Part shown: one piece after another, positions 10,135-24,937 of the stretch
Layout of the letters: every line of letters starts with the position of its first letter
Position numbering within the stretch: position 1 is the first letter of the stretch
DNA from: Candidatus Zixiibacteriota bacterium
Lineage (GTDB): Bacteria > Zixibacteria > MSB-5A5 > GN15 > FEB-12
NCBI GenBank assembly: GCA_034003725.1
Contig: JAVEYB010000001.1
Location: forward strand, 290,416-354,415
DNA: 64,000 nucleotides
Direction of reading: 5' to 3'
Position numbers and translations under genes: made by a program
The notes under the pieces: model-generated
The model's database searches: none
Told to the model about the DNA's origin: nothing
Seen by the model: the letters and a program-made list of their open reading frames with translations, nothing else

Positions 10135-12882
10135 TTACTTCAGCAAAATCATCTTCTTCTGATCTGTGAAGCCGAGTGACTCGAGGCGATAGAAGTACAC
10201 CCCGCTTGATACCGCGTGCCTGCGCGAGTCGGTTCCGTCCCAGACGACCTCGTGTTCTCCCGCCGGCAAAGACTGATCGACCAATACCCGCACCTCTTGC
10301 CCGAGCGTGTTGAAAATGGCCAGTCTTGCACGACTCGCCGCAGGCAGTGCAAACGATATGGTTGTCGCGGGGTTGAACGGATTGGGGTAATTCTGTGCAA
10401 GGACGAACGAACCCGGTAGCGCCTGTGCGGGCGTATCATCGACATCCGTCGGCAGATACAGCGTCGTCGCCCCATAGACATTGAAGCCGTTTGCCCGGTT
10501 ATCGATCCAGCCGAACCATGCGCGTCCCCGCGCCGACGCGGTCGACGGTGTCTTCATGATCTCGACGGCCGCCGATCCGACCGGTTCGTTGACTCCAACC
10601 GGAGTGCGGGTTTCGTCCAGAACCTGATAATATACGACGGCGCGGCCGTCGCGATAATCTGTCCACGCGAGACTGACGTAATCATTCTCGTCGACAGACA
10701 CCGACGGCGACTCCGCGGCCGCATTATCAGAGTCTGTCACCATATCGGAGGCGCCCCCGAGCAAATTCCCCAGCGAGTCGAATACCGAAAGGTATAAACG
10801 CCTGACGCTGTTCTCCAACCCGCACCAGGCCAGCGCCAGGGTGCCGTCACCGCGACCGTCGATCGAAAAATCACTCAACCCGCCTCCCGCCAGAACCGGC
10901 GCAAAGTCGAACGATCCACCGCGCGATTTGTCGGCTCGATACCACACCGTTTGTACTGTGACAGGGGTCGCGTCTACGTTGAGCCAGCTTGCGAAATACC
11001 GATTGTCGCCGGCGGTGGCGGCCCGGAGCGATCCGGCGGCGATTCCCGCAGACCCATCCGATATCAAAAACTCAGCCCCGTCGAGACTGTGATTCGGGTT
11101 CAACCACCGACCGTAAACTTGAAACGATCCCGATCGCTTGTCCAGCCAAACCACCAGCGCGCGTCGACTGCTGTTGATTGCCGCCTGCGGCGAGCTCTTT
11201 GCGCTCGCCTGTGCCGAGTCCGACACGGTGAATTCAGCGCCGACAAACCTACCCCAGCGGTTGGCATAGCGGGCGAATATCCGCTGCCCGGACTGACCGG
11301 AGACAGACCGGCCGTCAATCCACACCACCAGCGCCTCGTCGTTCAGCACAGCATCGATAGCCGGCTCACTCTGCAGGGCCGTCCCGTTGTCCTGGTTTAC
11401 CCGACGGCTCTCCGACAACGGCTCCAGAGCATGAGTAATCGAACGCAGATAGACATCGCCGTTGTCACGCCTCCGATCTGCATACGCACAGAGCGTATAC
11501 CAGTCACCGGCGATTGCCAGAGCCGGGGATGAAGACTCGGCGCCAATAAGATCGTCATTGACGGTTACTTCCGACGGGTACTGGGGAACTGCCGCCGAAT
11601 CAAACGCCATCAGCGAAATATCGGCCTGCCCCGTCAGGACCTCAGACCAGACAACTGCATAGCGCGCCTGACCGCCGTAGGCGATCGCCGGTGACCATCG
11701 CTGTCCGGCTGCCGCCGAGCTGTGCACTGCCGGGGTGTCGATTGGATTGGCGTCAATATCAAACCGCTGAGCAACAATGTCGGATTCAGCTGCAAACGAC
11801 GCCCACGCCGCTGCAAGGCGACCTGCGAGATCTACCGACATGTCCAGATCCCAATGAGCAGTGACGCCGTCCCCTGCCGAGACCAGCCGGTTAGCACCAA
11901 CCAGACCCGTATTGGTATTGAAGATTTGAACGTAAATGTCCTGACTGAGGCGCAGGTCCACCCATCCGACAGCGTACTGATCGGTAGTTAAGAATGTCAC
12001 CTGGGGAGTGTACTGGTCGGAGACATCGAAGGGCGATGGCACCAGCGAGAATTCGGTCCCCAGCGGCGCTCCGGCGCCATCAAACAAGCGCGTGTAGATG
12101 TCGGCATGTCCGTTCCGATAGTCTTCCCACGCGATCAGAAACCCCGCGTTGGGTTCGACCGCAACCGAGGGGACCCAATGAGAAACTGAACCGACGTCCG
12201 AATTGACCGGGATTGGCGCTGTCACGAACGTCCCGGTGCTGCTGACAATTCGCGCCCGAATACCGGAGCCCGCCGAGACATATTCTTCCCACGTAACAAC
12301 GACCCGCCCGTTCGGGTAGACCGCGATATCGAATGGACCCGCGAAGGCATCCCCCGCAGTGTCGTTTACGAGGTACGTCGGGATGTCGATCGCCAGGCTC
12401 GACGAATACCGAGAGCCGTAGATCAGACCGTTGGTCCGGTCGCGATAAAACAGGTATACTCGCCCCAGCGTGTCGGTTTCAATTCTCGGCTCAACATAAT
12501 CGGCGCCCACAACTGAACCGGCTATAAGTACGTTGGAACCGGAAGGCGCCCCGGACAACGAGTAGCGCTGCCAGAAAATCTTCCGGACACCATCACGGTC
12601 GTCATCCCAGACAACCAGCCATCCGCCGTCGGAAAGACCGACAATGTCGGCGTCGGCTTGATCGAAGCGGGCGGGCGCCACCGATTCAGAAATTGCAATA
12701 TCATCGAGCACGGAAATCGTGGCGGCCGTTCGGGTGAGGTTAGACCCGGACTGGACCGATTGCCGCTCCGGCGGATATAGGTCGAATCGGGCGCGGTGCA
12801 ACGCGGGTCGGTCGAAGTCCGCTGCAATTAGCGCCTCTGCAACCATCAGCGCGACCGCGGCGCCGATACATATGTGCTTCAT
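10135..12882 (-). CDS. Secreted beta-propeller-like repeat protein with C-terminal type IX-like sorting domain
   Basis: This 915-residue exported protein has a signal peptide (MKHICIGAAVALMVAEALIAA). About a dozen repeats of 50-60 residues follow, with a core of the form VVW-x-D-x-R (IAWEDYRNG, VVWIDGR, VVWLDKR, LAWTDYRDG, FGWIDNR), suggesting one or two beta-propellers. The last ~90 residues carry the YPNPFNPATTISF motif, GQEVRVL, DSRRHAVSSGVYFYRL and a basic KKMILLK end. This is the FlgD-like/Por secretion C-terminal domain seen on proteins exported by type IX secretion in FCB bacteria. Role unknown, possibly surface adhesion. It is a single-gene unit with its own terminator. Confidence 0.75.
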   Translation of the reverse strand: MKHICIGAAVALMVAEALIAADFDRPALHRARFDLYPPERQSVQSGSNLTRTAATISVLDDIAISESVAPARFDQADADIVGLSDGGWLVVWDDDRDGVRKIFWQRYSLSGAPSGSNVLIAGSVVGADYVEPRIETDTLGRVYLFYRDRTNGLIYGSRYSSSLAIDIPTYLVNDTAGDAFAGPFDIAVYPNGRVVVTWEEYVSAGSGIRARIVSSTGTFVTAPIPVNSDVGSVSHWVPSVAVEPNAGFLIAWEDYRNGHADIYTRLFDGAGAPLGTEFSLVPSPFDVSDQYTPQVTFLTTDQYAVGWVDLRLSQDIYVQIFNTNTGLVGANRLVSAGDGVTAHWDLDMSVDLAGRLAAAWASFAAESDIVAQRFDIDANPIDTPAVHSSAAAGQRWSPAIAYGGQARYAVVWSEVLTGQADISLMAFDSAAVPQYPSEVTVNDDLIGAESSSPALAIAGDWYTLCAYADRRRDNGDVYLRSITHALEPLSESRRVNQDNGTALQSEPAIDAVLNDEALVVWIDGRSVSGQSGQRIFARYANRWGRFVGAEFTVSDSAQASAKSSPQAAINSSRRALVVWLDKRSGSFQVYGRWLNPNHSLDGAEFLISDGSAGIAAGSLRAATAGDNRYFASWLNVDATPVTVQTVWYRADKSRGGSFDFAPVLAGGGLSDFSIDGRGDGTLALAWCGLENSVRRLYLSVFDSLGNLLGGASDMVTDSDNAAAESPSVSVDENDYVSLAWTDYRDGRAVVYYQVLDETRTPVGVNEPVGSAAVEIMKTPSTASARGRAWFGWIDNRANGFNVYGATTLYLPTDVDDTPAQALPGSFVLAQNYPNPFNPATTISFALPAASRARLAIFNTLGQEVRVLVDQSLPAGEHEVVWDGTDSRRHAVSSGVYFYRLESLGFTDQKKMILLK

Positions 12883-13322
12883 GTAATCCCCTGGCGAAAG
12901 CGATTCTGAGCCCCTTGATGCAAATATAGTGCCTCCTGGTGATTTTTGCGAGGCTTAATCGACTCCGCGCACCATTCTTTGCTGTCCCCTAACTACTTTC
13001 CGGCTAAGTTCTTACGAACAGGGCCACCGCGCTGAGCCGACAGCATCGCGTTGTACCTGCCGGAACCTGCGATTTCGGTTGCAATCACCTTCACAACTTG
13101 CGTTATCTTAGCATCACCTGATACTCGGTGGTCGGCTTAACCTGCCAGAACCAAAACGATTATGGTCCATGGTATTAGGCTGAAACCGGGGCGTACGAAT
13201 ATACGTACTAGTACCGACGGGAAGAAACGCCGGTTCCGCCGGTATACAAGGTGAGGCGGCCCCGGTATGGCGACTTGCGACGCTTTGAGTGTCTGCCCGG
13301 TAAAACCCGGCCGCGCCTGGAG
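12883..13322. other. 440-bp divergent intergenic region
   Basis: This separates two genes for exported proteins. On the minus strand TATATTTG (12921-12928) resembles the Bacteroidetes -7 element TAnnTTTG, about 38 bp from the 12882 start, but no upstream TTG box is clear. No convincing promoter for the plus-strand gene, RNA gene or repeat is visible. Confidence 0.35.
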
Positions 13323-18873: not shown

Positions 18874-20814
18874 TCAGTTCCCCACAGCGGCGGCCGTGTC
18901 GGGCGGGTGCCGTTCGATATCCATCCCGCCTCCCCACCGTGACTCCGTGCGCCAAAAGGTGTTGTCGCGGCCGTTTCCCTGGTACTGGTCCTGGCCGCCG
19001 AGATCTATGAACAGTCCGATCGAACCGAAGTCTCGCCTCGGATTACCGTACCCCTGCGTATTGTCCGAACGCCGGACCAGGTAACGGTCCTCCCCCTCGT
19101 TGTCGATTAATACGCCGATCCCGTTCGCCGAGCCGGCCGCCTGTGAGAGATCATACGCCGTGTACGTGTCATCGCCGTGGCGGTCGATCAGAATTCCGGC
19201 CGAGTAATCATGGCCGCACCCTTGCATGAGTCCCTTGCCGAAATATACGTCGCTGCCGTACTCGTCCACCAGCAGTCCGAGCGCCATGTGCGTTGCCGCG
19301 CCCTGCCCGTACTGGAAGCAGGAATATGTATCCAGCCCCGATGAGTCATAAATAAGCCCGACCGCATACCAGTAGGCACACGCCTGTGCGAAAATGTCGG
19401 CATGGTACGTATCGTTACCGTCGATATCGATTATGGCGCCGAGACCTCCCGACAAAGTCGGCCTCAGACCATATCCGAATCCCTGCGAAAGCGAAAGGTA
19501 ATGGTCTTCATATCGCAGTACGTCTTTGTACTTGCCGCCGGCGTAATAACTGTCCGATCCCGTTCGATCGTAGATCAGACCGATCCCCTGCACGAACCCA
19601 AACCCCTGCGCGTACAGCGCGGCGTTGTAGATGTCCCGGCCGCCCTCGTCGATCAGCAGACCGATTCCAAACGACCCGGCTCCCTGGCAGTGCGTATCGC
19701 CGTCATAGCGGTCGTTGCCCGCGCCGTCGTACAAAAGACCGAACCCGAAAAATCCCGACCCGAGCCCGAACGACATGCCGTCGTAGTGATCGTCACCGTC
19801 GAAATCGAGCAACATCCCGACCGTCAGACAACCCGAACCTATCGTGAAGTCGGTCTTGGAGCGATAGACGTCGTTTCCCGAGAGATCGATTATAATCGTG
19901 CCGGCCTTATTGCGATTGCCGTGAGACAGATCGTAGATGTCGTCGCCGCCCAAATCGAGAATGAACTTGTATTCCCCGTTGTAGTAGTCATTGCCGGGGC
20001 CGCCGACCTTCCATCCGCTCTGCTTGCCGAGATAGCTTTCCGAATTCGCGTCCGCCGGGAGGTATGCCTCGCCGCGCATGATCTGGTCCGCGGTCACCTG
20101 TCCCCCGGCCAGCATCGATCGCAACGCGTTCACTTCAAGCATGAGTTCACGAAGACACTCGACTCCGGCGCCCACGACCGGATCGATATCGATTTTCGTG
20201 CCAAACGACGCAAACCGGTCGGCGTATATCTCCTCTGCCTTTTCGGCACTGTCAAGCTGCTGGGCCGACATGAACTCCTCGTCCACCGACGTGGTCACCA
20301 GCTCTTTGAACTCGTTCAACAGAAACGAACGCTCCGATACCGACAGGCGGGCCAGCATCATTTCGGTCGAACGCGGGAATATAACGTCAAGATAAGTCGC
20401 GGCCCGGGACAACGTCTGATTCACGTTGAAGTTGGAAAAGGACAGATTGTATCGGGCCTGGATCTCGCCGATATCCGCCCGGTAGGGTCGAGTCCGCGCA
20501 GGAAAGTCCCTGCGCTCGAGATCGGCAAGCAGGATCGCCGCGAGAATCTCCGGTTGCCGGGGAACGTGGGCTTCCCTGAGTCCCTGAAGAAACTCGATCA
20601 TATCCCACGGGCGCTCCATAAAGTCGGCGACAATCTTCAGTCGGAATGAATCCGGTTCGAGGTAGTCGTTCCGGAACGATATGTCCTGCGGAAAAAGGCC
20701 GAGGTACGACGTCAATTCGGACAGACCATACTCCTCCGGCGATGCCTGCCGGTCATCGGCCTGCCCCACAGCGGCGCAGATCAAAAGAAGTGCTGCAATC
20801 AAACAGGTCTTCAT
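18874..20814 (-). CDS. Exported protein with twelve D-x2-G-x-D-x-Y repeats
   Basis: This 646-residue protein has a signal peptide (MKTCLIAALLLICAAVG). The N-terminal ~260 residues are mixed helical with no recognised domain. From about 265 onward a 30-40 residue unit recurs twelve times, each with G-[IL]-G-[LI]-[LI]-x-D then D-x2-G-x-D-x-Y (DLGGDDIY, DLSGNDVY, DFDGDDHY, DGAGNDRY, DEGGRDIY and so on) and often Q-G between units. The spaced Asp/Gly resemble RTX calcium-binding turns but are not the nonapeptide. A calcium-binding beta-solenoid is plausible but not proven. It heads the four-gene operon and has a clear sigma-70 promoter very close to the start. Confidence 0.7.
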   Translation of the reverse strand: MKTCLIAALLLICAAVGQADDRQASPEEYGLSELTSYLGLFPQDISFRNDYLEPDSFRLKIVADFMERPWDMIEFLQGLREAHVPRQPEILAAILLADLERRDFPARTRPYRADIGEIQARYNLSFSNFNVNQTLSRAATYLDVIFPRSTEMMLARLSVSERSFLLNEFKELVTTSVDEEFMSAQQLDSAEKAEEIYADRFASFGTKIDIDPVVGAGVECLRELMLEVNALRSMLAGGQVTADQIMRGEAYLPADANSESYLGKQSGWKVGGPGNDYYNGEYKFILDLGGDDIYDLSHGNRNKAGTIIIDLSGNDVYRSKTDFTIGSGCLTVGMLLDFDGDDHYDGMSFGLGSGFFGFGLLYDGAGNDRYDGDTHCQGAGSFGIGLLIDEGGRDIYNAALYAQGFGFVQGIGLIYDRTGSDSYYAGGKYKDVLRYEDHYLSLSQGFGYGLRPTLSGGLGAIIDIDGNDTYHADIFAQACAYWYAVGLIYDSSGLDTYSCFQYGQGAATHMALGLLVDEYGSDVYFGKGLMQGCGHDYSAGILIDRHGDDTYTAYDLSQAAGSANGIGVLIDNEGEDRYLVRRSDNTQGYGNPRRDFGSIGLFIDLGGQDQYQGNGRDNTFWRTESRWGGGMDIERHPPDTAAAVGN

Positions 20815-21102: not shown

Positions 21103-21525
21103 CTAGGTGGTCACGTCGTTGGTGGTGTTCGTGAGCGCACCTGTCTCGTCGATGTTCCAGACGTCGTCTGTCGCGTCATCGTCGAGGTTGGCCGTCGCGG
21201 TCGCGTCAAACGCGTTCACCTGCGGCTGGTAGTCGTAGCTGTAAATCGCGCTCGACATGATTTCAACACCAAGCTGCGGGAACGAACCGCCGGCAACCTG
21301 CGGGCTGGCGTCACCAGTCACGTAGGTGTTGTTGGCCTGGCGATACGTACGGGCCATCGTGTAGATCTGCTTCAGGATCTGCTTGGCCTCGGACTGCTTC
21401 GAGCGCGTGGTAGCCTGCATGAACCGCGGGATAGCCAACGCGGCCAGGATACCGATGATCACAACCACGATCATCAACTCGATGAGGGTGAAACCCTTCT
21501 GGCGATTGTGGAACTTGCTGAACAT
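21103..21525 (-). CDS. Type IV pilin-like protein 1
   Basis: This 140-residue prepilin starts with a short basic leader (MFSKFHNRQKG), then the prepilin peptidase site G|FTLIE with Glu at position +5 and a hydrophobic helix (MIVVVIIGILAALAI). The C-terminal globular part is Ala/Asp/Thr-rich and has no cysteines. It would be inserted in the inner membrane and assembled into a type IV pilus or type II pseudopilus. ATG 21525 is preferred because it matches the start of pilin 3. It differs from pilin 3 at only about ten of ~130 mature residues. A sigma-54 promoter (21589-21604) and a palindrome (21734-21761) lie upstream. Confidence 0.9.
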   Translation of the reverse strand: MFSKFHNRQKGFTLIELMIVVVIIGILAALAIPRFMQATTRSKQSEAKQILKQIYTMARTYRQANNTYVTGDASPQVAGGSFPQLGVEIMSSAIYSYDYQPQVNAFDATATANLDDDATDDVWNIDETGALTNTTNDVTT

Positions 21526-21588
21526 GAATCCCTCCAATACGGGTGTTATTGGTGTTACCGTCTTCTGCGTTCTTACGGCGTCACTAAT

Positions 21589-21604
21589 TGCAAGACCCGT
21601 GCCT
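21589..21604 (-). promoter_or_regulatory. Sigma-54 promoter of pilin gene 1
   Basis: The minus strand reads AGGCACGGGTCTTGCA. GG and GC are separated by 10 bp, and the sequence matches TGGCACG-N4-TTGCA except for the first base. It lies about 65 bp before the ATG. Confidence 0.85.
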
Positions 21605-21733
21605 CGACCGAGGGGATTTTTTGAACACGTTTGACGTCGCTAAGTCGTTATATACTAACACGCACTCGCTCGGGGCTCGGGACCGTAGGAACGGCCCCAT
21701 AAATCCGACCGAAATTCGCCCGGGTGCCTTCGC

Positions 21734-21761
21734 GCAGAATGCAAGACCTCTTGCATTCTGC
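21734..21761 (-). promoter_or_regulatory. Candidate enhancer (activator site) for pilin gene 1
   Basis: GCAGAATGCAAGA and its perfect complement TCTTGCATTCTGC form a 13-bp inverted repeat with a 2-bp spacer, 130-157 bp upstream of the sigma-54 promoter. The half-site GCATTCTGC recurs at the same distance from the pilin 3 promoter. The rest of 21605-21825 shows nothing further. Confidence 0.55.
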
Positions 21762-21825
21762 AAGAGCCTACACCTCGCCCAACTTCCCCGTCAGACTTTC
21801 CGGTCACGGAAGATCCCGGACAAAC

Positions 21826-21852
21826 GAAAGCGGGCGCTCAGAGAGCGCCCGC
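21826..21852 (-). terminator. Terminator of pilin gene 2
   Basis: GCGGGCGCTC and GAGCGCCCGC flank a 3-base loop on the minus strand, followed by TTTCGTTT. It lies 37 bp beyond the pilin 2 stop. Confidence 0.75.
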
Positions 21853-21888
21853 CGGAAGATGGAGCTATGACCTGTCCTGGAAACGAGA

Positions 21889-22317
21889 CTATGTGGTGAC
21901 GTCGTTAACCGTATTCAGAAGCGCACCCTGATCGTTGATCGTCCACGTATCAATCGTCGCGTCCCCGTCGATATCCGCCGTGGCGGTGGCCGTGAACGCC
22001 TGGCCGTTCACCTGAATATCATACGTGTAGATGGCGCTGGGCATGATCTCCACCCAGATTTCACCAAACGTCTGGGGGTTCGCGGCGTTGGCCACGCCGC
22101 CCGGGTTGAAATAAGCGTTTGCTACCGACTGTTGACGGTACGCACGCTGGTTGACGTATATCTGCTTGAGAATGAGCTTGGCTTCGGACTGCTTGGAACG
22201 CATTGACGCGGTCATGAATCGCGGAATAGCCAGCGAAGCCAGAATTCCTATGATGACGACCACGATCATCAATTCGATCAGCGTAAAACCCCGATTGTCG
22301 CTATACTGTCTGCGCAT
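21889..22317 (-). CDS. Type IV pilin-like protein 2
   Basis: This 142-residue prepilin has the leader MRRQYSDNRG, cleavage site G|FTLIE and a hydrophobic N-terminal helix like the other two. Its globular region is more diverged (QSVANAYFNPGG, WVEIMPSAIYTYDI) but ends in the same NTVNDVTT-type tail. ATG 22317 has AGGG eight bases upstream. A sigma-54 promoter lies at 22369-22383, in the gap behind the regulator gene. It may be a minor or alternative pilin. Confidence 0.88.
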   Translation of the reverse strand: MRRQYSDNRGFTLIELMIVVVIIGILASLAIPRFMTASMRSKQSEAKLILKQIYVNQRAYRQQSVANAYFNPGGVANAANPQTFGEIWVEIMPSAIYTYDIQVNGQAFTATATADIDGDATIDTWTINDQGALLNTVNDVTT

Positions 22318-22368
22318 ATCCCTAACCCTCATTGTGCTGAGATTTCGTATTAGTCGACGGTTATATGC

Positions 22369-22383
22369 GCAAGTAGCGTTCCA
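22369..22383 (-). promoter_or_regulatory. Sigma-54 promoter of pilin gene 2
   Basis: The minus strand reads TGGAACGCTACTTGC, matching TGGCACG-N4-TTGC at all but one fixed position, with GG and GC 10 bp apart. It lies in the short gap after the regulator gene. No obvious upstream palindrome like those of pilins 1 and 3 was found; the expected place is inside the regulator coding region. Confidence 0.8.
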
Positions 22384-22403
22384 AGCCGCTGTTCAAAAAA
22401 TTA

Positions 22404-23807
22404 CTAGTCGCCGTCACCGTCTTCAGGCCGGTTCTTCTGTTTACCTGCAAACAGCCCCTTGAGGTTGTAGCGATCGAGCTTGCGGTACAGTGTTGAGCTG
22501 TCAATGCCGAGAATCCGGGCAGCCTCGGCCTTCTTACCGTCAGTCTGTGTCAGAACATAATGGATATATGCCTTTTCGATCGATTCCAGGGTCGGATTGC
22601 TCGGCTGTGCCTGCTGCACAACCCCCGCGGGCTCCGACTTGGCGAGCCGCTCCGGAAAGTCGGCTCGCTCCAGCCGCGGCGCGCGACTGAGCAGGATGGC
22701 CCGCTCGATCGTGTTCTCAAGCTCGCGGACATTCCCCGGCCAGTGATAGCCTCTCAGAAGTTCGAGCGCGTCCGGAGCGATCTCCTTGGCCGGCCGGCCA
22801 GCCTTCTGACAGAACCGGTCGATAAAATGCTCGATCAACAGCGGGATATCCTCCGCGCGTTCGCGAAGCGGCGGAATCGTGATCGGTATGACGTTGAGGC
22901 GGTAAAACAGATCCGGGCGGAACCGCCCGGCTTTTACGTCTTCCTCGAGATCGGCGTTGGTTGCCGCTATCAAACGGACATCGACTTCGATCGGCTGCGT
23001 GTGTCCAACCGGCGTGATTTTCTTCTCTTCCAGCACGCGCAGCAGCTTGACCTGAATGGCCAATGAAGTGTTGCCGACCTCGTCGAGGAAAAACGTACCG
23101 TTGTCGGCAACCTTGAACAAACCGTCCTTGTCCTTGACCGCACCGGTGAACGAACCCTTCTTGTGCCCGAACAGCTCGGACTCGAGCAGTGTCTCCGGAA
23201 GCGCCGCGCAGTTGATCGACACAAACGGTCCGCCGCAGCGGGTGGAATGATGATGAATCGCCTTGGCGATTAGGTCCTTCCCGGTGCCCGACTCCCCACG
23301 AATCAGCACGGTGGAATCCGACGAGGCCACCCGCCGGGCAAGCTTCTTGAGCTGGGCCACCGCTTCCGACGTCCCGATGAAATTGTCGAACGAGTTATCG
23401 CCCTGCAGTTGTTTCTTGAGCTGGACATTCTCCTGAAGCAGGGCGGTCCGGTTTATCGACTTCTCGATAACCAGCTTGATCTCGTCAACCTTGAACGGCT
23501 TGGTGATGTAATCGGCGGCCCCTTCTTTCATCGCCTCGATCGCCGTATCTACCGAAGCAAACGCGGTCATCACGATAAACTCCTGCCCCGCCTTGAACGT
23601 CTTGACCGTCTTGAGCACGTCGATTCCGGTCATCTCCGGCATCTGCAGATCGGCGATCACCAGATCGTAGTTCTTCTGCTTGAGCCACGAAATACCCTCC
23701 GGCGGAGAGGTGGTGGAATCGACACTGTAGCCCTCCTTCGCCAGCATAATCTCCATGAAATTGCACATGGAATCTTCATCATCGATCACAAGAATAGAAG
23801 CCGGCAT
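22404..23807 (-). CDS. NtrC-family sigma-54-dependent response regulator (PilR-like)
   Basis: This 467-residue activator has three parts. A receiver domain (about 1-120) has phosphoacceptor Asp53 in IADLQMP and the switch Lys in ITKPFK. A central AAA+ domain follows, with Walker A GESGTGKD, the ELFGHKKGSFTGA loop that contacts sigma-54, and Walker B TFFLDEVG. A Fis-type helix-turn-helix (KKAEAARILGIDSSTLYRKL) lies at about 435-455. ATG 23807 places the receiver at the N-terminus. It lies between pilins 2 and 3, all three of which have sigma-54 promoters, so it is their likely activator. No partner kinase is next to it. Confidence 0.92.
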   Translation of the reverse strand: MPASILVIDDEDSMCNFMEIMLAKEGYSVDSTTSPPEGISWLKQKNYDLVIADLQMPEMTGIDVLKTVKTFKAGQEFIVMTAFASVDTAIEAMKEGAADYITKPFKVDEIKLVIEKSINRTALLQENVQLKKQLQGDNSFDNFIGTSEAVAQLKKLARRVASSDSTVLIRGESGTGKDLIAKAIHHHSTRCGGPFVSINCAALPETLLESELFGHKKGSFTGAVKDKDGLFKVADNGTFFLDEVGNTSLAIQVKLLRVLEEKKITPVGHTQPIEVDVRLIAATNADLEEDVKAGRFRPDLFYRLNVIPITIPPLRERAEDIPLLIEHFIDRFCQKAGRPAKEIAPDALELLRGYHWPGNVRELENTIERAILLSRAPRLERADFPERLAKSEPAGVVQQAQPSNPTLESIEKAYIHYVLTQTDGKKAEAARILGIDSSTLYRKLDRYNLKGLFAGKQKNRPEDGDGD

Positions 23808-24051
23808 GAACGTCTCCGACAGGTACACAGACCAGGTTATTTACGCCCTTTTGAGACAATTTCGGCAGAGCCGTCGAGACGGATTATGCCGACTTTCCAG
23901 TTTGCTCAGGAATTGGACAGAGACAGCCCCGGACGTCCAGGCGGGTTGTCCCCGCTCCGGACACGCTTCATTCTGACATCAATCTGCTGGATACTTCCAG
24001 CCCGCCGCAGCGGACGGTTACGTCCCGCAGTAATGACATCGGGAACACTCC

Positions 24052-24081
24052 AAAAAAAGCGCCCGCCGAAGGCGGGCGCTT
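24052..24081 (-). terminator. Terminator of pilin gene 3
   Basis: AAGCGCCCGCC and GGCGGGCGCTT pair around a GAA loop; on the minus strand a run of seven T follows. It is 22 bp past the pilin 3 stop. Confidence 0.92.
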
Positions 24082-24103
24082 CGAGTTGAGCGTGGGCTGC
24101 CGA

Positions 24104-24526
24104 TCAGGATACGGCGTCGTTGGTCGTGTTCTGGAGGTTGCCGGTCTCGTCGATGTTCCAGACGTCGTCTGTCGCGTCATCGTCGAGGTTGGCCGTCGCG
24201 GTCGCGTCAAACGCGTTTACCTGCGGCTGGTAGTCGTAGCTGTAAACGGCGCTCGACATTATCTCAACACCTAGCTGCGGAAAGGCGCCGCCGGCTACCT
24301 GCGGGCTGGCGTCACCCGTAACATAGGTGTTATTGGCCTGACGATAGGTACGGGCCATCGTGTAGATCTGCTTCAGAAGCTGCTTCGCCTCCGACTGCTT
24401 CGCCCGCGTGGTAGCCTGCATGAACCGCGGGATCGCCAGCGAGGCCAGGATACCTATGATCACGACCACGATCATCAACTCGATAAGGGTAAAACCCTTC
24501 TGGCGACTGTGGAACTTGCTGAACAT
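24104..24526 (-). CDS. Type IV pilin-like protein 3
   Basis: This 140-residue prepilin is nearly identical to pilin 1: the same leader type (MFSKFHSRQKG), G|FTLIE site, hydrophobic helix and a mature region with about ten substitutions, mostly at the extreme C-terminus (NTTNDAVS instead of NTTNDVTT). The ATG at 24526 has AGAAAGG just upstream. Its own sigma-54 promoter and upstream palindromic site lie in the preceding 250 bp. With pilin 1 it forms a recent duplication flanking pilin 2 and the regulator, so recombination between the two is possible. Confidence 0.9.
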   Translation of the reverse strand: MFSKFHSRQKGFTLIELMIVVVIIGILASLAIPRFMQATTRAKQSEAKQLLKQIYTMARTYRQANNTYVTGDASPQVAGGAFPQLGVEIMSSAVYSYDYQPQVNAFDATATANLDDDATDDVWNIDETGNLQNTTNDAVS

Positions 24527-24594
24527 ACCTTTCTCCGATACGTACATGGTGTGAATGCTCACCGAGAGCTTCGAGAATTACCACCATCATAATC

Positions 24595-24609
24595 GCAAAC
24601 GGCATGCCT
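24595..24609 (-). promoter_or_regulatory. Sigma-54 promoter of pilin gene 3
   Basis: The minus strand reads AGGCATGCCGTTTGC. GG and GC are 10 bp apart, and two positions differ from TGGCACG-N4-TTGC. It lies about 69 bp before the ATG, matching pilin 1. Confidence 0.78.
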
Positions 24610-24740
24610 GATCGCGCAGGCCGATTCCATCAAAAACTGGACTGATTAAGTCAATGAGCGCCATGCACAACCGACCGGAAATCCCGCTGGTTCGACAATC
24701 CGGCCGATTATCGCCGGCGTTTGACACTCACAAAGCGCCG

Positions 24741-24769
24741 CAAATTGCGAGAGCAATCCGCATTCTGCC
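24741..24769 (-). promoter_or_regulatory. Candidate enhancer (activator site) for pilin gene 3
   Basis: ATTGC-GAGA-GCAAT is an inverted repeat, followed at 24761-24769 by GCATTCTGC. That half-site also occurs in the pilin 1 palindrome. Both copies start about 150 bp upstream of their promoter (152 and 149 bp). The remaining sequence up to 24937 shows nothing else. Confidence 0.45.
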
Positions 24770-24937
24770 ATACTTCACCCGCGTGCGACGCGCTGCTGTG
24801 TGATCTCTGACCCTCCGACACCTTACCAAGGTGCATCCCCTTGCCGGAGCATATGATTGGTTGGTACAAGCGTCAGAAGTCAATTCACTGTGCCGGTCGC
24901 CCCGGTTTCGTCCCCGCTGAACTGCCGTGGATCAGTC

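Follow-up and report, generated by a model that had tools for sequence, protein, structure and literature searches.

Introduction

In Pseudomonas aeruginosa, the two-component pair PilR/PilS controls pilin synthesis, with the NtrC-type response regulator PilR activating the pilin promoter pilA together with sigma-54 (PMC6058289). In Geobacter sulfurreducens pilA directly follows pilR, and its promoter is of the RpoN type (PMC2725144). For the PilR of this species a wide regulon, comprising 54 candidate loci, has been predicted (cited in PMC6058289). Two further regulators are comparable in their binding sites. Myxococcus xanthus NmpR, an NtrC-like protein, uses two tandem dyads, GCGCA-N5-TGCGC, with 14-15 bp between the sites (PMC11841059), and Escherichia coli AtoC uses a pair of sites with TGCA letters, located upstream at about 145-185 bp (PMC3118216). 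A literature search found no publications dealing with sigma-54 or with the control of pilins in Zixibacteria.

The window, i.e., the whole stretch of 64,000 nucleotides analyzed here, comprises positions 290416-354415 of contig C1 in a 3.73-Mb genome of 35 contigs; relatives are Candidatus Zixiibacteriota / GN15. It carries three pilin genes and a regulator gene (Table 1). The locus has in common with P. aeruginosa PilR the combination of an NtrC-type regulator and a sigma-54 pilin promoter, here a predicted one, and it is like the G. sulfurreducens PilR-pilA arrangement in having a pilin gene directly 3' of the regulator and a sigma-54 promoter. In P. aeruginosa, however, PilR is partnered by PilS, a six-TM kinase, whereas a regex search of the fetched flanks around the Zixibacterial loci, which are short in some cases, found no ORF with a histidine-kinase motif. 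PilR sites are composed of C/G-TGTC repeats, and the predicted Zixibacterial operator is unlike them. While 54 candidate loci are predicted for G. sulfurreducens, the operator described here stands at two pilin promoters only. With NmpR it shares the tandem dyads, a GCA-Nx-TGC core and a preferred dyad spacing, but the Zixibacterial dyads read TTGCA-N3-TGCAA and are 6-7 bp apart; in addition, NmpR targets pilR and oxygen-use genes and not pilin directly. AtoC resembles our system in its paired upstream sites with TGCA letters and gave the regulator its best NCBIfam score. This score was 466 against a cut-off of 714, none of the NCBIfam equivalogs among the matches shown passed its cut-off, and AtoC differs further by 20-bp elements, wider internal spacing and a metabolic target. 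With its own N3 spacing, the predicted Zixibacterial operator appears distinct from both NmpR and AtoC sites.

Our main reading, to which we assign a probability of roughly 0.8, is a dedicated sigma-54 pilin switch, in which the regulator would act from tandem dyads by looping and pilin 2 would share the operator of pilin 1. For surface pili in the uncultured phylum Zixibacteria, it offers a regulatory circuit that can be tested and is specified down to the base.

Pilin Genes, Regulator and Sigma-54 Promoters

All three pilins contain the prepilin methylation motif (PF07963, TIGR02532). They were regarded as type IV pilins on the basis of the GFTLIE N-methylation motif, a hydrophobic N-terminus, and the presence in the same genome of PilB, which scored above cut-off and is encoded elsewhere. 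The -24/-12 elements that a preliminary description of this DNA had placed before each pilin gene were all confirmed, with the consensus matches listed in Table 1. In random 115-bp stretches of the window, matches of at least 9/12 occurred in 2.4% and of at least 10/12 in 0.4%. Across the Zixibacterial loci the distance from the sigma-54 element to the ATG is about 60-70 and 70-90 bp. At the position of the pilin 3 element, the pilin 3 of locus L040 carries CGGCATGTCCGTTGCC. The genome contains one rpoN gene (a single RpoN/sigma-54 DNA-binding domain) and about 23 sigma-54 activators. A genome-wide scan for -24/-12 elements gave 59 matches versus 50 in the control and does not stand out, and for this reason no further genes were added to the regulon on promoter matches only.

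Table 1. Coordinates of the pilin locus features in the window.
Feature	Position	Strand	Description
Pilin 1	21103..21525	-	140 aa, MFSKFHNRQKGFTLIELM; PF07963 2.3e-11, TIGR02532 above cut-off; candidate major type IV pilin
-24/-12 element, pilin 1	21589..21604	-	AGGCACGGGTCTTGCA; 11/12 consensus letters; same place in orthologues
TGTTCA-A-tract element, pilin 1	21617..21627	-	23 bp before -24 element
Predicted tandem-dyad operator (UAS), pilin 1	21732..21763	-	TTGCAGAATGCAA-GAGGTC-TTGCATTCTGCGC; 159 bp before -24 element
Terminator-like hairpin	21829..21853	-	3' of pilin 2, before pilin 1 operator
Pilin 2	21889..22332	-	147 aa; PF07963 4.6e-10
-24/-12 element, pilin 2	22368..22383	-	TGGAACGCTACTTGCG; 10/12 consensus letters; conserved in orthologues
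TGTTCA-A-tract element, pilin 2	22390..22400	+	Inverted relative to pilin 1
NtrC-type response regulator	22404..23807	-	467 aa; PF00072, PF00158, PF25601, PF02954 matches
Terminator-like hairpin	24060..24074	-	3' of pilin 3, separates pilin 3 from regulator
Pilin 3	24104..24526	-	140 aa; in window species and L040
-24/-12 element, pilin 3	24594..24609	-	AGGCATGCCGTTTGCG; 9/12 consensus letters
Predicted degenerate tandem-dyad operator, pilin 3	24738..24770	-	TGGCAGAATGCGG-ATTGCTC-TCGCAATTTGCGG; 161 bp before -24 element

The NtrC-type activator with GSFTGA, reported between pilins 2 and 3, was found intact. The matches to the receiver (PF00072), the sigma-54 AAA+ domain (PF00158) and the Fis-type HTH (PF02954) all scored above cut-off, and D53, K103, GESGTGK at 171, GSFTGA at 218-223 and FLDEVG at 240 are in place; orthologues have either GSFTGA or GAFTGA as the sigma-54 contact loop. 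Among proteins of solved structure, the closest by sequence is 4l4u, a regulator of the NtrC family. The assignment to the NtrC type takes together the domain plan, the loop, Walker and receiver residues, a distant predicted operator combined with a -24/-12 promoter, and rpoN. The protein had also been called PilR-like. The sequence architecture would fit a PilR role, with activation of the major pilin through sigma-54, but the motif search found no PilS-like kinase nearby and none of the family models shown was past its cut-off. An unlinked PilS may exist. We speak of a PilR-like way of working, as the sequence suggests it, and not of established membership in the PilS-PilR system.

Orthologues of the regulator were found on about 35 Zixibacterial contigs. 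The gene order regulator - pilin 2 - pilin 1, together with constantly spaced sigma-54 elements, occurs in about 30 genomes, and the module is conserved in four families (f1-f4) of the order.

A second short element accompanies the promoters of pilin 1 and pilin 2. In 27 of 49 pilin-1-type promoters TGTKCA with an A-tract stands at -23/-22 from the -24 element, and in 19 of 43 pilin-2-type promoters its reverse complement stands at exactly -12; both promoters thus have the A/T-tract at an equal distance from the -24 element. The element is found mostly in family f1. Among the 14 loci that have it at both promoters, its variable letter agrees between the two in 13 and is mostly simply T. TGTKCAAAAAA has exactly two copies in the genome, at the promoters of pilin 1 and pilin 2. 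Since about one copy of TGTTCAAAAAA per genome is expected by chance according to our estimate, its rarity is weak in itself, and the argument is carried by positional conservation. A general UP-like element of all sigma-54 promoters is an unlikely role for TGTTCAAAAAA, which is present at two promoters only. With considerable doubt, we suggest that the TGTKCA-A-tract could be a putative site of a second pilin-specific factor tuning both pilin promoters differently, in which case the remote operator and the paired element would set the ratio of the two pilins.

Conservation of the Predicted Operator

The predicted operator consists of two tandem 13-bp dyads, TTGCA-N3-TGCAA / TKGCA-N3-TGC, typically with N6-7 between them. 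In footprinting we searched for two tandem TKGCA-N3-TGCMA dyads with at most 4 mismatches, anchored on the -24 element. Regions were kept only if the sigma-54 match was at least 7, so that the sample is no test of the promoters themselves; L013 and L020 were assigned to the pilin-1 group by hand. Tandem dyads 157-167 bp before the -24 element were found, in all four families, at 37 of 49 pilin-1-type promoters, which include related genomes and are not independent of one another. Shuffled regions gave an expectation of 0.12 (mononucleotide) to 0.28 (dinucleotide). The other 12 regions miss the 4-mismatch limit: four have a site with 5 mismatches, including pilin 3 of the window, and eight have no site, some of these coming from distant families and some from near relatives (L012, L023).

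The spacing within the dyads is N3. GCA-N3-TGC was observed 63 times in the pilin-1-type upstream regions versus 1.9 expected, while spacings N0-2 and N4-7 were near or below expectation. Spacings N8-10 were slightly above it (5, 6, and 5 versus 1.8, 2.3, and 1.4, respectively), which probably reflects the distance between neighbouring dyads. The gap between dyads was 6 bp in 24 cases, 7 in 10, 8 in two and 5 in one.

At pilin 1 of the window the dyads are TTGCA-GAA-TGCAA and TTGCA-TTC-TGCGC. The preliminary description had put forward the half-site GCATTCTGC upstream of pilins 1 and 3. On the plus strand the window does have just two copies of it, 21753-21761 and 24760-24768, which stand 149 bp and 151 bp away from their promoters, but the conserved unit is the tandem TTGCA-N3-TGCAA, of which GCATTCTGC is just the dyad core. 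The perfect 13-bp palindrome noticed at the same place is real (13+2+13 at 21734-21761) but arises by chance from the N3 letters of the window species, where the triplets of the two dyads are complementary and make the pair resemble a palindrome. TGCAAGA/TCTTGCA was rejected as a half-site and binding motif, since the long palindrome is not conserved and the N3-spaced tandem dyads are; the copy at 21589 is merely the -12 element.

In the 3.73-Mb genome the operator was found only at pilin 1 (0 mismatches, the sole such copy) and at pilin 3. There, 5 mismatches are counted against the stricter 13-bp dyads and 1 against the core with an N7 gap, of which it is the best copy in the genome. The remaining genome matches have 2 mismatches and are at control level. 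In 133 Zixibacterial genomes the stringent pattern gave 22 matches versus 0 for the backwards control. By script, 17 of the 22 were examined; 10 adjoin pilin genes, including every match with 0-1 mismatches, and the seven away from pilin genes all have 2 mismatches. In L152 (G110), from a different family of the class, a 2-mismatch tandem dyad is located 5' of a pilin gene, which suggests that the operator is older than the order. In L143 (G080) the tandem dyad and the pilin gene downstream of it are on opposite strands, which suggests that the orientation of the dyad is free.

Proposed Mechanism and Alternatives

We propose that the regulator would be phosphorylated, probably by an unlinked kinase, and would bind, in the form of two dimers, the tandem dyads situated about 160 bp ahead of the pilin 1 promoter; it would also bind the weaker operator copy before pilin 3. 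It would then assemble into an AAA+ hexamer and, as we infer, reach by DNA looping the sigma-54 polymerase waiting at the -24/-12 elements and remodel it. Pilin 2 would most likely be activated from the operator of pilin 1, which is the nearest one and lies about 600 bp downstream. The locus would thereby be a candidate for a single operator that serves two sigma-54 promoters lying on either side of it, downstream and upstream. Hairpins resembling terminators separate the units (Table 1), which is in keeping with such a switch.

The preliminary description had spoken of a full regulon, which was overstated, pilin 2 being without a site of its own. Indeed, no operator is present within 300 bp of the pilin-2 promoters in 41 of 43 loci, and GCA-N3-TGC upstream of them is at chance level (2 observed versus 1.6 expected). 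As there is usually one tandem site per locus, pilin 2 might not be driven by the pilin 1 operator but by another activator, by the regulator acting from solution, or by partial read-through from the regulator gene, which lies 72 bp upstream, the operator and the sigma-54 promoters otherwise being the same. No terminator-like hairpin is listed from the regulator stop to pilin 2, which agrees with the read-through variant. We take this as a serious alternative, although not the one we would expect. The sigma-54 element of pilin 2 is conserved as well as that of pilin 1, the TGTKCA element occurs on both promoters and nowhere else in the genome, and in L072/L073 the sole operator is located before pilin 2, while pilin 1 there is without a good sigma-54 element, so the regulator is plausibly able to serve pilin 2. 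Sigma-54 activators are able to act from downstream, and the shared operator is for this reason our best guess: pilin 2 probably shares the operator of pilin 1, this being the least certain part of the proposed switch.

Neighbourhood alone is no proof of a target, and several activators have the same domain plan; the operator could accordingly belong to another of the approximately 23 sigma-54 activators, with the adjoining regulator controlling something else. We find this improbable. The recognition-helix core STLYRK is kept in all Zixibacterial orthologues with the C-terminus in the alignment. It is absent from 6/6 readable near paralogues (the seven closest were fetched, L005 was not recovered), which have TTLFDK, RRLYSR, HVLVYR, HVLIYR, NTLRSK, and NTLRDR, a comparison covering only the nearest paralogues among the sigma-54 activators of the genome. 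We pair the two on the grounds of this helix, of the gene order shared by about 30 genomes, and of how rare the site is, confined as it is to the pilin locus; the upstream operator very probably belongs to the adjoining regulator.

A reading of the inverted repeats as pilin 2 hairpins or terminators and not as protein sites, which the perfect 13-bp repeat with a 2-base gap in the window species may suggest, is scarcely credible. The spacing statistics rule it out as the main explanation: only the N3 within dyads is conserved, the inter-dyad gap varies from 5 to 8 and the long palindrome is not conserved. Moreover, pilin 2 has a separate terminator-like hairpin (Table 1).

Duplicated Pilin and Other Observations

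In our reading, pilin 3 is a duplicate of pilin 1 and has kept the promoter and the operator while the remaining upstream region has diverged. The two genes are 93% identical in protein and 89% in DNA, whereas the upstream region of pilin 3 gives 57% in global alignment, with the promoter and the degenerate operator retained. The counterpart pair in L040 is 75% identical. This difference between 89% and 75% makes it possible that the duplication dates from near the base of the genus and that the copies were later homogenised, or underwent gene conversion, in the window species. Between the two reading frames (21103-21525 versus 24104-24526), 46-47 of 47 bases are identical in blocks near the 3' part.

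Elsewhere in the window, a 646-aa ORF (18874-20814, minus strand) with many aspartate/glycine-rich repeats is without a Pfam match. A 915-aa protein (10135-12882) has a C-terminal FlgD_ig / secretion-tail-like domain, and shortly 5' of its ATG a sigma-54-like element, AGGCACTATATTTGCA, with 10/12 consensus letters is located at 12919-12934 on the minus strand.
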